The translations under genes and the position numbers were made by a program. A stretch of 64,000 nucleotides of DNA from assembly GCF_036347135.1 (NCBI RefSeq), contig NZ_CP108938.1, positions 6,882,001 to 6,946,000 of the forward strand. Direction: 5' to 3'. Source of the DNA: Streptomyces sp. NBC_00775 (lineage in GTDB: Bacteria; Actinomycetota; Actinomycetes; Streptomycetales; Streptomycetaceae). This document shows, piece after piece, positions 3,417 through 8,807 of this stretch; the first letter of the stretch is position 1, and each line of letters starts with the position of its first letter. Under the pieces are notes generated by a model. The model was not told where the DNA came from and did not search any database. It worked only from the letters and a program-made list of their open reading frames with translations.

Positions 3417-3425
3417 CGCTGAACA

Positions 3426-6400
3426 TCAGCGTGACGGGCACACGTGGCCCACCGACTGGCCCCGCAGGTACGCCGTTCGTTCCGGCGGGGTCAGATCGCG
3501 GTTGACGGTATGGCACAACTTCTGGATCGCTGAGGCCGGTTTGGGGAGTACGGCGTTCCACAGCCTCACGGTGTGGTCGGCGCTGCCGGTGGCGAGGGTG
3601 CGGCCGTCCGGGCTGAACGCCACCGCATACACCCAGTCGGTGTGCCCGAGCATGGTCCTCTGTGGTTCACCGGTGTCCGCATTCCACAGCCTCACGGTGG
3701 AGTCCTGGCTGCCGGTGGCGAGGGTGTGGCCGTCGGGGCTGAACGCCACGTCAGATACCTGGTCGGTGTGGCCGGTCAGGGTTGTGCGGGTCTTGCCGGT
3801 GGATATGTCCCACAGTCGCACGGTGTAGTCGTCGCTGCCGGTGGCGAGGGTGTGGCCGTCGGGGCTGTAAGCCACCGCCTGCACGGCGTTGGTGTGGCCG
3901 GTCAGGGTGGTGCGGGTCTTGCCGGTGGATATGTCCCACAGTCGCACAGTGTTGTCGGCGCTGCCGGTGGCGAGGGTGTGGCCGTCGGGGCTGAACGCCG
4001 CCGACCACACCTCGTCGGCGTGGCCGGTCAAGGTTGCGCGGACCTTCCCGGTGGTCACGTCCCACAGTCGCACGGTCTTGTCGGCGCTGGCGGTGGCGAG
4101 GGTGTGGCCGTCCGGGCTGAACACTGCCGAATACACCTGGTCGGTGTGGCCGGTCAGGGTGGTGCGGGTCTTACCGGTGGATATGTCCCACAGTCGCACG
4201 GTGTAGTCGGCGCTGGCGGTGGCGAGGGTGTGGCCGTCGGGGCTGAACGCCGCCGACCACACCCAGTTGGTGTGGCCGGTCAGGGTTGTTCGGGGCTTCC
4301 CGGTGGTCACGTCCCACAGTCGCACGGTGTTGTCGGCGCTGCCGGCGGCGAGTGTGCGGCCGTCGGGGCTGTATGCCACGGAAAACACCTGGTCGTGCCC
4401 CGCCAGGGTGGCGCGAATCGCGTCGGTGGTCACATTCCACAGCCTCGCGGTACGGTCGGCGCTGCCGGTGGCGAGGGTGTGGCCGTCGGGGCTGAACGCC
4501 GCCGACCACACCTCGTCGGTGTGCCCCATCAGGGTGGTGCGGATCGCACCGGTGGTCACGTCCCACAGTCGCACGGTGTGATCAGTGCTGGCGGTGGCGA
4601 GTGTGTGACCGTCCGGGCTGAACGCCACCGACTCCACCGAATTGGCATGTCCACTCAGGACTGTGCGGGTCTTTCCGGTGGCCACGTCCCACAACCGCGC
4701 CTGGTAGTCCCAACTGCCGGTGGCGAGGGTGTGGCCGTCGGGGCTGAAAGCCACCGAACTCACCGAGTCGGTGTGGCCGGTCAGGGTGGTACGGGTCTTT
4801 CCAGTCGTCGGGTCCCACAGTCGTGCGGTGTGGTCGGAGCTGCCGGTGGCGAGGGTGTGGCCGTCGGGGCTGAATGCCACCGAACTCACCGAGTCGGTGT
4901 GGCCGGTCAGGGTGGTACGGGTCTTTCCAGTCGTCGGGTCCCACAGTCGTGCGGTGCGGTCGGAGCTGCCGGTGGCGAGGGTGCGGCCGTCCGGGCTGAA
5001 TGCCACCGAACTCACCCAGTCGGTGTGGCCGGTCAGGGTTGTGCGGGTTTTTCCGGTGGTCACGTCCCACAGTCGCACGGTGTGGTCGTCGCTGCCGGTG
5101 GCGAGGGTGTGGCCGTCGGGGCTGAACGCCACTGCCTCCACGGCGTTGGTGTGGCCGGTCAGGGTTGTGCGGGTTTTTCCGGTGGTCACGTCCCACAGTC
5201 GCACGGTGCGGTCGCCGCTGCCGGTAGCGAGGGTGTGGCCGTCGGGGCTGAACGCCACCGAACTCACCGAGTAGGCGTGACCCGTCAGGCGCCGATGAAG
5301 TGGGAGGCCTGCGACGGTTTGCAGGATCGCCTTGGATTCGGGAGTGGGGCTGGTGCGGTATGCCTGGACGGCCAGCAATGAGGCGAGTTCGGGGTTCGTC
5401 GTGATGAGCGTGTAGGACTGGGCGGCCAGCTGCCGCGACAGCGCCGCCTGCCTCTCACCGCGAGCCGTCCGCCACTGCCAGACGGCACCCGCTCCGGCCA
5501 GGAGCGCGAGCACCAACAGCGAAGCGAGGACCGCGATCACGCGCCTGCTGCGCCGAGCGGCAGCCTGCTGGCGCTCCTTGCTCGCAGCGAGAAACGCCGC
5601 GATGTCGGCCGGCAGCCGCCGTTTCCGTGACCACTCGATGCCTTCCGCGAGTGCCGATCCGCCGAGCAGGTCTCCCGGCTGCTTCTCCTCGGCCCAGCGG
5701 GCACGTCGTCCGTGGGTGTGGTTGAGCCATTCATGGAAACGGTGGTCCTGGTCGACCCACTTGCGCAGTGCGCCCCAGTCACGGATGAGTGCCTCATGAA
5801 TCAGCTCGGCCACCGGTTCCCCGGGAGGGGCGTCGGGGTTTTGGGGCGTGCCAAGCGTCTGGGTGGTGATGATGCGATGGCGCGCGAGGGCGGCGATGAC
5901 GTCGTCGACGGCCGTCTTCTCACCGCCGGGACCGCTGGGGCCGCCCGGACTGGCTGCCAGGTCGCGCAGTTCGTCCAAGGGAACCTGCGCCCGGACGGCG
6001 GTGATGTGGTGGCTGGGGTCGGCGGGGTGCACCAGGGAGGTCAGCGTCCGCCGGGCGATGAGCCGTTGCTCCTCGGACAGCTCGCCGAGGGCACTGTCGC
6101 ACCACGTGGTCACGCTCCCGCTGACCGCTCCGATGCGCCGGTACGCCTCATGCGTGAGGTACCCGTCCTTCCGCCGGAGCCACAGCTGGCTGAGCGTCAT
6201 CTCCAGCAGGGGCAGCACGGTGACGGGCGCCTGGCCGGTGAGGGCCGCTTCGGGGGTGATGGCCAGGACGTCGTTGATGATCTGCTCGGGCAGCCCGGGC
6301 TGGAAGCGGAGGCCCACGTCCTGGGCGGGCAGGGTGATGATGTCGTGCAGGTCCTGCTGGCTCAGGGTGCCCGGTACGTTGAGGAGTCCTGGCATCGCGG

Positions 6401-7601
6401 CTTCCAGCAACCTGGGTGCCAGGGCGGCCAGTTGGGGATAGAAGTCGTCGCGCATGACCATGATCACGCTGAGCTTGGTGTAGACGTCGGTGACCGTGGT
6501 GATCTCGTCGATCACGGCCAGGAGGTCCCGCAGCCGGCCGTCGGTGCCCTGCACCAGGAGCTCTTCGAACTGGTCGATGACCAGCAGGACGCGCTGGTAG
6601 TCGCCCTCTCCGCCCAGCCTGCGGTTGACCGCTGTCGTGATTCCGTCACTCGTCGCCCCGGGCAGTCCGGCACGCTCGATCTCGGCGAGCAGATCCTGCC
6701 TCGGCCGGGCCACCACGGGCAGCCACCGGTCACTGCCCGGCAGTTCCCCCGCCGCCAGCGCGCACAGCACACCCGCCTGGATCAGGGACGACTTCCCCGA
6801 CCCGGACGGCCCGAGCAGCACCGTCAGCTGCCGCTGCTGGGCCAGGTTCGCCATGACCTGCCGTACCGCGTCCTTCCGCCCTTCGAACCACCGGGCATGC
6901 TCAGCCGTGAACGGCTCCAGCCCCCGGTAGGGACACACCTCCCGCGCGGCCAGCTCCGGCATGATCTGCCGCAGGACCTGCGTCGGAGTGACGTACGCGA
7001 TGTCCTGCCCTTTCCCGTACTGATCAGGGGCGGTGATCTCGGTCAGCATGCCGATGACCAGGCCGGTCACCTCATCGAGGACAGGCCCGCCACTGAACCC
7101 GGTGGTGAGGTCGTTCGCGGCGGTCAGCTGCAGATGCGCGCCTCTGCCCTGTGAGCCCGGCAGCAGATCCCCGGCCACCCCGAAGCCGAAGTGGCCGCCC
7201 GGCGGAGCCTGCGCGGGGAACCCGAACGACCGCACCTCGTGACCCCGGCAGCCCTCCGCGGAGCCCAGCGGCAGCGCCCTCATGCCCGCCGGCGTACCGC
7301 TCAACCGGATGAAGGCCACGTCCTCGTCCTCAGGGGCCCGCCACTGATCGCCGTTCAGGACCTGCCCTTCCACCCCTTCCACCCCTTCCACCCCGTCCGC
7401 ACGGTCCGCATGGGGGAAGGCCAGCCCTACCCGCTCGCCGGGCCCACCCCCCGCCGCCAGGACGACGTGCGCGCAGGTGACCAGGACGTCCTCGGCCACC
7501 AGGAAGCCGGCGCCGGCCACTCTCCCGTCCGGTCCGAGGAGCTGGGCCACCGCCGGGGGCAGTTCCGTCTCTGCGCTGTCCACGCTGTCCGCGCTGTCCA
7601 C
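3426..7601 (-). CDS. Trypsin-like protease / STAND NTPase / WD40 repeat protein
   Basis: This 1391-residue protein has four parts. Residues 30-215 form a trypsin-like protease domain with a complete triad: His45 (TCAHVV), Asp94 (EDVAFIRL) and Ser170 (GFSGGPV). Residues 223-650 form a STAND-type NTPase of the nSTAND1 kind, opening with CPYRGLEPF, with Walker A GPSGSGKSS (264-272) and Walker B VLLVIDQFEEL (338-348). Residues 687-709 are a strongly hydrophobic single helix. Residues 774-1361 are fourteen WD40 repeats of 42 residues (GHT...FSPDGHTLATGS...VRLWD), enough for two seven-bladed propellers. The GTG start lies four bases after the stop of the Trypco1 gene, so the two are probably co-translated. 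The family is known from bacterial conflict and signalling systems in which the WD40 part senses, the NTPase switches and the protease acts as effector. That role is inferred here. Confidence 0.93.
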   Translation of the reverse strand: MDSADSVDSAETELPPAVAQLLGPDGRVAGAGFLVAEDVLVTCAHVVLAAGGGPGERVGLAFPHADRADGVEGVEGVEGQVLNGDQWRAPEDEDVAFIRLSGTPAGMRALPLGSAEGCRGHEVRSFGFPAQAPPGGHFGFGVAGDLLPGSQGRGAHLQLTAANDLTTGFSGGPVLDEVTGLVIGMLTEITAPDQYGKGQDIAYVTPTQVLRQIMPELAAREVCPYRGLEPFTAEHARWFEGRKDAVRQVMANLAQQRQLTVLLGPSGSGKSSLIQAGVLCALAAGELPGSDRWLPVVARPRQDLLAEIERAGLPGATSDGITTAVNRRLGGEGDYQRVLLVIDQFEELLVQGTDGRLRDLLAVIDEITTVTDVYTKLSVIMVMRDDFYPQLAALAPRLLEAAMPGLLNVPGTLSQQDLHDIITLPAQDVGLRFQPGLPEQIINDVLAITPEAALTGQAPVTVLPLLEMTLSQLWLRRKDGYLTHEAYRRIGAVSGSVTTWCDSALGELSEEQRLIARRTLTSLVHPADPSHHITAVRAQVPLDELRDLAASPGGPSGPGGEKTAVDDVIAALARHRIITTQTLGTPQNPDAPPGEPVAELIHEALIRDWGALRKWVDQDHRFHEWLNHTHGRRARWAEEKQPGDLLGGSALAEGIEWSRKRRLPADIAAFLAASKERQQAAARRSRRVIAVLASLLVLALLAGAGAVWQWRTARGERQAALSRQLAAQSYTLITTNPELASLLAVQAYRTSPTPESKAILQTVAGLPLHRRLTGHAYSVSSVAFSPDGHTLATGSGDRTVRLWDVTTGKTRTTLTGHTNAVEAVAFSPDGHTLATGSDDHTVRLWDVTTGKTRTTLTGHTDWVSSVAFSPDGRTLATGSSDRTARLWDPTTGKTRTTLTGHTDSVSSVAFSPDGHTLATGSSDHTARLWDPTTGKTRTTLTGHTDSVSSVAFSPDGHTLATGSWDYQARLWDVATGKTRTVLSGHANSVESVAFSPDGHTLATASTDHTVRLWDVTTGAIRTTLMGHTDEVWSAAFSPDGHTLATGSADRTARLWNVTTDAIRATLAGHDQVFSVAYSPDGRTLAAGSADNTVRLWDVTTGKPRTTLTGHTNWVWSAAFSPDGHTLATASADYTVRLWDISTGKTRTTLTGHTDQVYSAVFSPDGHTLATASADKTVRLWDVTTGKVRATLTGHADEVWSAAFSPDGHTLATGSADNTVRLWDISTGKTRTTLTGHTNAVQAVAYSPDGHTLATGSDDYTVRLWDISTGKTRTTLTGHTDQVSDVAFSPDGHTLATGSQDSTVRLWNADTGEPQRTMLGHTDWVYAVAFSPDGRTLATGSADHTVRLWNAVLPKPASAIQKLCHTVNRDLTPPERTAYLRGQSVGHVCPSR
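3519..5282 (-). repeat. Fourteen tandem 126-bp units encoding WD40 blades
   Basis: The 3' part of the gene consists of fourteen head-to-tail units of 126 bases, one of them (the eighth blade) three bases shorter. Several units are nearly identical at DNA level: the stretches around 4771-4850 and 4897-4976 match almost base for base. The changes concentrate at the loop positions before the first strand (GHTDxV, GHTNxV) and at the residue pairs in GSxDxT. Because the unit is a multiple of three and GC-rich, the opposite strand also stays open for about 600 codons; that frame is not a gene. Confidence 0.95.
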
Positions 7602-7605
7602 GGGA

Positions 7606-7956
7606 TCAGCCCGAACCCTCGGCCGACTGAGCCGGGTGACCGGAGCCGTCCTTCTTCCACGACACCGTCACCCGCAGATGACCCGTGGCCGCGCTCTTGG
7701 TGATCACGGCTCCGGCCTCGACCGCGAGGTCGACGCCGAACTCGACCACGATCTCGTCGGGGCGAGCCTTGCGCAGCTGGTCGAGCGTGGCGCGGGCCGT
7801 TTCCGTGATCGGCTCCAGGGCCGCTTGCAGAGTCCCCGGCAGTTCGTGAACGGCATCGCTGATGCGGCCGGCCTTCACCGGCCCTTCGAGCCCAGCGGGT
7901 GCCTCGACCAGTACGCAGCCCCCACCGTCCAGCGGAATCCGAGTCAGAGGTGCCAC
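7606..7956 (-). CDS. Trypco1 (CU044_2847-type) small protein, partner of the protease-NTPase
   Basis: The start is set at a GTG (7956) with GGAGGA six bases upstream, giving 116 residues that begin APLTRIPLDGGGCVLVE. This matches my recollection of the trypsin-co-occurring domain 1 family (also called CU044_2847 family): a short beta-rich start, a middle helix (AALEPITETARATLDQL), then a DEIVVEFGVDLAVEAGAVI segment and a final VTVSW strand. Members are usually encoded next to trypsin-like/STAND proteins, as here, where only four bases separate the two genes. The biochemical role is not established; a regulator, substrate or adaptor of the protease are options. There is no signal peptide or membrane helix. 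The tail is Gly/Ser-rich and may be disordered. Confidence 0.82.
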   Translation of the reverse strand: MAPLTRIPLDGGGCVLVEAPAGLEGPVKAGRISDAVHELPGTLQAALEPITETARATLDQLRKARPDEIVVEFGVDLAVEAGAVITKSAATGHLRVTVSWKKDGSGHPAQSAEGSG

Positions 7957-8051
7957 AACGCTTCCTCCGTCTCTCTCACACTCACGCCCAGGGATCTCCG
8001 CCAGAATCCGCGCCCCTGGCATATGCCGCACCTAGAGGTAGGCCATCCGCG

Positions 8052-8696
8052 TCACACGGGCCGGGCGCAGCCCACCGGTTTTGTGCCGCCCAGCTGGACG
8101 TACAGGGCCGTGGAGGCCGGGCACTTCGACCGGGCGGTGACCGCGGAGGTCACCTTGTACTCCGGGGGCTTCTTGCCCTTGCCGTCGCACGCCGTCTCGC
8201 GGACCTGGCCTCCGCCCGAGCCGTAGACGCAGTCGCCCACGATGGTGCGGGGGCCCCCGCCGCCGCCCGGGTCGCCGGGGTGCGGGGGTTCGAGCTTGCG
8301 CATGCAGGCGTAGCCCTGCGGGACCGCGCCGTCGCCGTCCTCGTCGGAGGCGGGCCGCGTCTCGCTGATGTGCAGGACGAAGTCCGTGGTCGCGGGGCAG
8401 GACGGGCCGTCGGCCACCTTGCCGTCGTAGCGGGCGGTCACCCGGGCGGCCGCCCGTTCACTGGTGCAGGGCACCTCCGTGAAGCTGGTCGTCCCGAAGG
8501 AGCTGCACTCGTCGACGGCGAGGAACTCCACCCCGTAGCCGGAGGGACGCGTCGACGTCGCGCTCGCGCTCGGCTCACCGTTCCCGGAATCGGAGTCGGA
8601 GCCGGACCAGCGCTGGCACCCGGCGAGCACCACCACGGCGAGCAGCAGCGCGCACACCGCTCCAACGGAACGCCGGCCCAACGCGCCTGCTCGCAT
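8052..8696 (-). CDS. Secreted lipoprotein, function unknown
   Basis: Translation is placed at the ATG at 8696, which has GGGGGAA four bases upstream; a longer in-frame start has no such site. The product of 214 residues has a type II signal peptide with the lipobox LAGC near residue 26, so it should be lipid-anchored on the outer face of the membrane. The mature part starts with a Ser/Asp-rich linker and then has about nine cysteines (for example DECSSF, EVPCTS, PSCPAT, GYACMR, VGDCVYG, SKCPAS, VGCARP), arranged as two similar halves: a Cys-containing strand, then TARYDGKVADGPSCPATTDF against TSAVTARSKCPASTALY. The family is not recognised. It is a single gene between the Trypco1 unit and the hexosaminidase. 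Confidence 0.8.
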   Translation of the reverse strand: MRAGALGRRSVGAVCALLLAVVVLAGCQRWSGSDSDSGNGEPSASATSTRPSGYGVEFLAVDECSSFGTTSFTEVPCTSERAAARVTARYDGKVADGPSCPATTDFVLHISETRPASDEDGDGAVPQGYACMRKLEPPHPGDPGGGGGPRTIVGDCVYGSGGGQVRETACDGKGKKPPEYKVTSAVTARSKCPASTALYVQLGGTKPVGCARPV

Positions 8697-8807
8697 GGCT
8701 TCCCCCCGATACCCCCGCCCAGCGTGACCCGCGACAGCGGGCACACGCCAGACGTGTGGGGTGCTTTGGGCCACTTGGGGGTGGTCCGCCGGGTGTGCGG
8801 CGTACGG

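Follow-up and report, generated by a model that had tools for sequence, protein, structure and literature searches.

A Trypco1-coupled trypsin-nSTAND1-WD40 protein of Streptomyces as a predicted outside-in membrane receptor with a variable sensor

What does a bacterial receptor recognise, and on which side of the membrane, when a protease, a STAND NTPase and a long series of WD40 repeats are joined on one chain? This question is raised by a pair of genes located at positions 3426..7956 of a 64,000-nucleotide stretch of the Streptomyces sp. NBC_00775 genome (contig NZ_CP108938.1, positions 6,882,001 to 6,946,000), here called the window. The large gene encodes such a protein, and it is preceded by a small gene of the Trypco1 family. 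From sequence comparisons we propose, with moderate confidence, that the large protein is an outside-in membrane receptor resembling the NOD-like receptors (NLRs): its propellers would bind a nonself ligand on the outer side of the membrane, and this would likely activate the protease within the cell. An earlier note on this DNA had suggested that ligand binding by the WD40 part triggers NTP-dependent assembly and opens the protease; the sensor, the switch and the protease output named there fit the data presented below, whereas the propellers are predicted to be extracytoplasmic and not cytosolic.

Both open reading frames (ORFs), and all the features described within them, lie on the minus strand. 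The small gene (7606..7956, GTG start, 116 residues) matches the Trypco1 profile PF19493 with an E-value of 2.1e-24 and 86.4 bits, which passes the Pfam gathering score of 24.6, and it also matches the NCBIfam CU044_2847 family (NF041216, E 1.2e-18). The Pfam scan was made on a longer ORF beginning at 8031; the start at 7956 agrees with the family alignment and with the position of a Shine-Dalgarno-like GGAGG (7964..7968, minus strand) read from the sequence. Four nucleotides (7602-7605) separate the Trypco1 stop codon from the GTG start of the receptor gene (3426..7601), which encodes 1391 residues with a trypsin-like protease domain (residues 30-185, 7047..7514; Trypsin_2 PF13365, E 5.1e-17) and an nSTAND1 NTPase domain (residues 224-642, 5676..6932; PF20703, E 1e-82) that spans positions 1-377 of the 379 in the profile. 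These domains are followed by a predicted transmembrane helix, a linker, the WD40 repeats and a short tail. The arrangement described in the earlier note, a Trypco1 gene four nucleotides ahead of a trypsin-STAND-WD40 gene, is borne out by the ORFs and the Pfam matches, and this two-gene architecture is far beyond chance.

Relatives of the trypsin-nSTAND1 half were studied in the best 80 of at least 563 confirmed loci; one locus with a broken receptor gene that was too short (L051) was dropped from the topology counts and from the comparison of trypsin-bearing with trypsin-less loci, which leaves 79. A set of close proteins was made of the best 120 of 3400 relatives plus the window's own (121), and a set of 30 further Streptomyces units includes the window; two of these units come from the source genome itself, and some of the genomes were already represented among the 39 trypsin-bearing loci (L122 and L124 are from the genomes of L025 and L029). 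The residues His45, Asp94 and Ser170 align to identical residues in 39 of 39 trypsin-bearing loci, the triad is kept in all 121 close proteins, and its equivalents are present in the 30 Streptomyces loci. Likewise, the Walker A (GPSGSGKS, residues 264-271) and Walker B (LLVIDQFEE, residues 339-347) motifs are complete, and both the G-x4-GKS pattern and the Walker B aspartate are conserved in 39 of 39 loci, so that the intact triad and Walker motifs reported before are confirmed across the family. By sequence criteria the large protein is a member of the nSTAND1 and trypsin-like peptidase families, and on the same grounds it has the plan of an NLR/STAND receptor: effector, STAND NTPase and repeat sensor on one chain. 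When compared by sequence with known structures, the trypsin-STAND half gave no convincing relative (one match, E 0.098), and the WD40 part gave many, the best being 2ymu.

The prediction that this receptor crosses the membrane starts from a hydrophobic segment of 21 residues (688-708, 5478..5540) with a Kyte-Doolittle mean of 2.50, immediately preceded by RRSRR and followed by the propellers. A hydrophobic helix is found at the equivalent place in 77 of the 79 relatives (19-residue mean of at least 1.6); 76 of these carry more positive charge just ahead of the helix than just behind it, and the equivalent helix is present in 121 of 121 close proteins. A linker (residues 709-771, 5289..5477, delimited from identity profiles) leads to the repeats, and the chain ends in a tail (residues 1359-1391, 3429..3527) in which Cys1363 and Cys1388 are predicted to form a disulfide. 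The WD40 repeats of the window's protein have no cysteine, its two cysteines in this part being both in the tail. Cysteines were counted in 65 of the 79 relatives, after the removal of incomplete ORFs, helix-less proteins and proteins that continue for no more than 300 residues past the helix. Their number after the helix is even in 56 of the 65 and zero in none; two or more fall inside the last 70 residues in 60 of them, with a spacing of 25 or 26 in 41 of those 60. Cysteines are rarest in the propeller part, with 0.15 per 100 residues, compared with 0.48 on the STAND side and 2.73 in the tail. Among the 112 close proteins longer than 1100 residues, 86 have exactly two cysteines after the helix and four have four, and a C-x(22-28)-C tail is present in 108. 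Paired cysteines such as these would be usual in extracytoplasmic domains.

The orientation is also indicated by the domains that replace the protease in other members. Among 38 of the 40 trypsin-less relatives (L062 and L069 were too short to be scanned), the N-terminal region matches Pkinase in 20, HTH_31 in 10, BTAD in eight, CHAT in five, Peptidase_C14 (a caspase domain) in three and TIR in one, a single protein being able to match several families. Kinase, DNA-binding and TIR-type domains act in the cytosol. Because these partner domains have cytoplasmic activities, the N-terminal half is predicted to lie inside and the propellers outside. Taken together, the helix, the positive flank before it, the mostly even number of cysteines behind it and the cytoplasmic N-termini lead to a predicted N-in/C-out topology, with the protease and the switch inside the cell and the propellers outside the membrane. 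A third full nSTAND1 protein of the source genome (L098, 5431500-5437500; 1338 residues) differs at its N-terminus and likewise has a pair of cysteines at its C-terminal end; the four Trypco1 matches of this genome are all away from it. In addition, an ORF with a similar cysteine-paired tail, perhaps a second receptor, lies just downstream of the unit in another genome (L105, G016:C3).

Several points weigh against this topology. The helix was assigned by a hydropathy scan, and a buried hydrophobic helix may explain the segment; L085 and the truncated L061 have no visible helix; the number of cysteines after the helix is odd in nine of the 65 complete relatives, and, among the 112 close proteins, it is odd in 20 and two have none. 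Recognition of tailed-phage proteins by STAND proteins takes place in the cytosol. It is conceivable, albeit rather doubtful in our opinion, that the unit is a wholly cytosolic NLR-like antiphage system. The segment would then be a helix buried in the STAND arm, and the propellers, like Avs proteins, would detect a phage protein in the cytosol. Characterised bacterial STAND proteins with the same three-part order do bind conserved proteins of tailed phages, according to the available text of PMC10907252; nevertheless, a hydropathy of 2.50 next to RRSRR, kept in 77 of 79 relatives and positive-inside in 76, is hard to reconcile with a buried helix, as are the mostly even cysteines behind it and the cysteine pair with which 60 of 65 proteins end.

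The 14 WD40 repeats (residues 772-1358, 3528..5288), 13 of 42 residues and one of 41, amount to two seven-bladed propellers and form the predicted extracytoplasmic sensor; their mean identity to each other is 72%. Repeats were tallied with a profile built from the window's own repeats, and proteins with fewer than seven usable repeats were left out of the ranking of positions, and those with fewer than nine out of the nearest-repeat comparison described below. The four most variable of the 42 positions in the window's repeats are 7, 9, 25 and 27, and at each of them the proportion of nonsynonymous differences (pN) exceeds that of synonymous ones (pS), with 0.51-0.67 versus 0.24-0.34. The same four positions lead the mean ranking over 24 proteins with a repeat identity above 0.5 (of 33 tabled). 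Positions 7, 9 and 25 correspond to R1-2, R1 and D-1, described in the accessible part of PMC3419727 as interaction hotspots of the top face, and the chance that three named positions fall within the top four of 42 is 3.5e-4. Furthermore, the repeats of the fungal proteins HET-D and HET-E are classed by positions 10, 11, 12, 14, 30, 32 and 39, which were picked for a high dN/dS (PMC12222747, as far as its text is available); with the register deduced from spacing, 12-14-30-32-39 becomes 7-9-25-27-34 here, and 7, 9, 25, 27 and 34 are the five most variable positions in the window. By these comparisons, the sensor half is hypervariable at fixed repeat positions.

This pattern has to be read with some care. 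pN is greater than pS elsewhere too, for instance at 34 and 35, and also at positions of low diversity such as 5, 11, 13, 18, 22, 23 and 42; the values are pairwise counts over recombining repeats and involve no likelihood test. Positions 10 and 11 of HET-D/E, on the register deduced from spacing, would fall on 5 and 6, where the window's repeats show little variation. Finally, variable hotspots in highly repetitive WD40 proteins had already been noted in general (PMC5587647, in the portion of its text available).

At the DNA level, the nearest relative of 13 of the 14 repeats of the window is in the same protein, the inner halves of the relatives used in this comparison being 43-78% identical to that of the window. 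Over 24 proteins, 133 of 278 repeats have their nearest repeat within their own protein, when 11 are expected by chance. On the other side, five proteins (L026, L028, L029, L043 and L045) have no repeat that is nearest to their own protein, and because of them recent homogenisation is not universal. Judged from these sequences, the repeats evolve in concert in some members.

A larger kind of change becomes visible when proteins with nearly the same inner half are compared. Among the 121 close proteins, 44 pairs have inner halves at least 98% identical, and in six of these pairs, belonging to five sets, the propellers are less than 90% identical. P0334 is 99.6% and 99.4% identical inside to P0336 and P0337, and 46.6% in the propellers; the corresponding values are 99.4% and 63.7% for P0299/P0309 (both named S. 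pharetrae), 98.2% and 69.7% for P0281/P0286, 98.2% and 80.3% for P0252/P0255, and 99.1% and 85.6% for P0259/P0261. Propeller identity is thus 47-86% over the five sets and 47-70% in three of them. The window's own protein shows the same with P0242, which is 95.3% identical inside and 56.9% in the propellers and carries a different propeller set; P0243 has, relative to the window, 11 rearranged repeats of the same kind. Identity drops at about residues 701-730, just past the helix, in P0334/P0336, P0299/P0309 and window/P0242, and at about 750 in P0281/P0286; in P0252/P0255 and P0259/P0261 the drop is mainly inside the repeats, from about 780. It recovers in the last 20-30 residues of P0299/P0309, P0281/P0286 and P0259/P0261, with no clear C-terminal recovery in P0334/P0336 and P0252/P0255. 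From these alignments the sensor differs wholesale between some near-identical relatives, and we infer that whole cassettes are exchanged by recombination.

Six pairs, three divergent and three near-identical, were compared repeat by repeat. In the divergent pairs the four hypervariable positions are changed more often than the other positions: in P0299/P0309, 28 of 53 residues at the four positions differ versus 157 of 478 elsewhere (p 0.006), in P0259/P0261 13 of 51 versus 60 of 482 (p 0.017), and in P0334/P0336 41 of 49 versus 210 of 458. For the three near-identical pairs together, where changes are too few for such a comparison, the counts are 2 of 139 and 13 of 1330. Against a general role of sensor exchange it must be said that in the remaining 38 of the 44 close pairs the propellers are almost the same, and that the sensor differences are known at the protein level only. 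Some of those 38 pairs differ by one 42-residue repeat, and P0293 and P0294, with an identical inner half, have 12 and 13 repeats.

Near-equality of the propellers in 38 of 44 pairs is what would be expected if the protein were a surface sensor for developmental or nutrient signals, in which the protease frees a regulator, the variable propellers track small ligands and no conflict is involved. The kinase and DNA-binding N-termini of the relatives, typical of signalling rather than killing, point in the same direction. We regard this explanation as unlikely, since wholesale sensor differences on near-identical alleles fit conflict or recognition better than housekeeping, and the distribution of the unit, patchy and partly on plasmids, with empty sites in most relatives, also speaks against an ordinary signal. 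A receptor with an E-value of 1e-100 or better was found in 29 of 295 Streptomyces genomes, at 37 places, and seven plasmid records carry relatives of the unit. In the source genome the unit sits between convergent genes for an S37 peptidase and a glycoside hydrolase of family 3 (GH3). In 18 of 21 genomes with both genes on one contig the distance between the two matches is 1011 bp or less, too short for the unit; at this site two genomes (G000 and G020) have the unit, and in G016 other genes are found. Judged by these comparisons the unit is accessory and patchy. The genes found in G016 (L101; window interval 3417-8800) are cucumopine-synthase-like and polyketide-cyclase-like.

A second complete unit is present in the source genome, 53 kb from one end of the contig. 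The 11.5-Mb contig G270:C1 has two equally matching units, at 231152 and 11308391, near its opposite ends, and these units are possibly located in terminal inverted repeats. When the locus was scanned for inverted repeats, only imperfect pairs were found, all inside coding sequence. A phage origin was considered and is unsupported: at E 1e-5 the protease part had no match in any phage record, and three phage records match the NTPase part alone with 27-30% identity (E up to 1e-5). A local retroelement as the source of variation was also discarded, given that the genome-wide RVT_1 scan found no reverse transcriptase in the window, its two matches being at 1.95 and 10.86 Mb and the window at 6.88 Mb.

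The second gene of the pair, Trypco1, was searched for with a profile built up from these same loci. This gene or a remnant of it adjoins 33 of the 39 trypsin-nSTAND1 loci (28 strong, five weak or broken) and none of the 40 trypsin-less ones, an association with p 1.7e-16 that is overstated since the sequences are related. In L052, one of the 28 strong cases, it lies downstream of the receptor; this locus was initially a candidate for a protease-Trypco1 fusion, which was rejected because the other reading frames contain a propeller gene with a cysteine tail and then a separate Trypco1. In L050, one of the six loci without Trypco1, the gene begins 1 kb from the end of the contig. Trypco1 stands alongside 28 of the 30 Streptomyces units (24 full-length, four broken); in 41 related genomes it is within about 110 nt of the match in nine of ten receptor genes, one of them partial, and in the three plasmid records inspected, of the seven, it is 4-5 nt upstream of the receptor. 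Absence of the small gene beside most homologues, which the earlier note had named as one observation that would refute its proposal, was not found.

The same survey bears on what Trypco1 does. Trypco1 could be the antidote of a toxic protease, the unit persisting as an addiction module; the tight order with Trypco1 first and the patchy, plasmid-borne spread would agree with this. Trypco1 is, however, frameshifted, truncated or non-adjacent beside an intact protease in ten genomes (L025, L026, L029, L033, L040, L047, L113, L121, L131 and L138), one Trypco1 of L047 being about 2 kb away on the opposite strand. Because of this repeated loss a strict toxin-antidote pair is very unlikely. All ten genomes hold a full-length Trypco1 elsewhere, as do 31 of the 41 relatives anyway, so that rescue in trans by another copy is possible. 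In L047, L028 and G062:C198, two units or two Trypco1 genes are close together, and in each case one Trypco1 is decayed or missing while an intact one remains, as if a single Trypco1 could serve both proteases. By its distribution, Trypco1 is a partner of the protease and no strict antidote. The earlier suggestion that the small protein is a regulator, adaptor or substrate therefore survives in part: its coupling to the trypsin domain is real, and the idea of a necessary regulator is weakened by the ten genomes. AlphaFold models of Trypco1 were poor, with a mean pLDDT of 53.5 from 53 aligned sequences and 55.6 from 103.

From these results, the outside-in receptor that we favour could work as follows. 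The propellers would bind their ligand outside the cell on the top face; binding would let the NTPase domains assemble in an NTP-dependent manner; the clustered proteases would then cut a cytosolic target, with Trypco1 perhaps as adaptor or substrate, and as a result the affected hyphal cell would die or be arrested. Two processes would likely diversify the sensor, namely unequal repeat exchange and the recombination of entire cassettes, since its ligand (phage, rival or unlike kin) keeps changing and the sensor has to follow. The pattern of variability suggests recognition of a changing partner, for which phage particles, rival toxins and unlike kin are candidates. A bolder and, in our estimate, improbable extension is that the unit serves surface allorecognition in filamentous bacteria, a membrane-anchored NLR with an interchangeable and hypervariable WD40 sensor on the outside telling kin from nonself hyphae and firing a cytosolic protease. 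To our knowledge, bacterial STAND defence proteins sense inside the cell; in contrast, the variable sensor of this family is predicted to be exposed on the outside, with the protease in the cytosol. The natural allele pairs, with 98-99.6% identity inside and 47-86% in the sensor, would be of use here, as any difference in their phenotypes could be ascribed mainly to the sensor. With them two questions become testable: which partners are recognised by the WD40-STAND proteins of multicellular bacteria, and whether allorecognition of the het type exists in bacteria. For Trypco1, a family of unknown function, the results name a defined partner and speak against its being a strict antidote.

How does this unit compare with systems already described? 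No specific defence model of PADLOC 2.0.0 covers the pair; there are eight partial matches, none on Trypco1, namely HEAT-ARM_XIII, which covers just the WD40 repeats (180 of 1972 profile positions, E 2.8e-44), RT-Protease_XI, which covers the protease part (E 2.7e-6), and weaker ones. The VMAP ternary systems have, in the available text of PMC7159879, a Trypco1 beside a trypsin-like peptidase as found here. Nevertheless, the protease of the window is joined to nSTAND1, a hydrophobic helix and WD40 repeats; a profile scan found no VMAP-C in residues 1-771 of the receptor; and neither MoxR nor vWA was found among the neighbours scanned (the S37 peptidase, LppU-like, GH3, LysR, EamA, EPSP synthase, ABC and one matchless gene), the remainder of the 64-kb window not having been scanned. 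By these sequence comparisons, the unit is no VMAP ternary system. Other loci of the source genome hint at such systems: a Trypco1 adjoins a trypsin-VMAP-C gene (L100, 3530500-3540500), and for another the nearby gene, at a distance of about 1.8 kb, encodes an AAA_5 ATPase that matches bpMoxR below the threshold (L099, 7395500-7403500).

The nSTAND1 proteins with exchangeable N-terminal effectors share the NTPase family, and trypsin is named among their effectors (PMC8195603); for nSTAND1, the available text of that account mentions neither a membrane helix ahead of the sensor nor a tail with paired cysteines, and neither Trypco1 nor an exchange of sensors. More broadly, the membrane topology predicted here and this kind of sensor exchange are undescribed in the open-access trypco1/nSTAND1 literature as available, a search that left aside supplements, preprints and most subscription journals. 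The highly repetitive class of prokaryotic WD40 proteins has near-identical repeats with variable interaction hotspots; in the text available, PMC5587647 has neither the word trypsin nor NACHT, and describes no cassette exchange or comparable membrane topology.

The C-terminal end of L069, a Chloroflexi relative, resembles what we take to be an FGE-sulfatase-type domain. This fold is a sensor fold varied by retroelements (PMC10907252, from its accessible part). The conflict sensors diversified by diversity-generating retroelements are, in the same text, fast-varied sensors on nSTAND1/MoxR-type systems with trypsin or Trypco nearby, which is a likeness; they are, however, C-type lectin folds varied by a retroelement, whereas the variation described here resembles repeat exchange and cassette replacement.

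In its sensor the unit resembles the fungal HET-D/HET-E (HNWD) proteins, for which the accessible text of PMC4986451 and PMC12222747 describes WD40 repeats of high identity, concerted evolution and repeat-number polymorphism, with hypervariable positions whose spacing (12, 14, 30, 32) equals 7, 9, 25 and 27 here (PMC12222747). The fungal NLRs are described in those texts as intracellular, with NACHT and a HET effector, in contrast with the nSTAND1 domain, trypsin effector and predicted outside sensor of the receptor described here. On sequence grounds the unit shares the features of the HNWD sensor, with the register taken from spacing, and not the HET effector or NACHT. If the allorecognition receptor proposed above were true, it would be a bacterial counterpart of the fungal het genes turned inside out.

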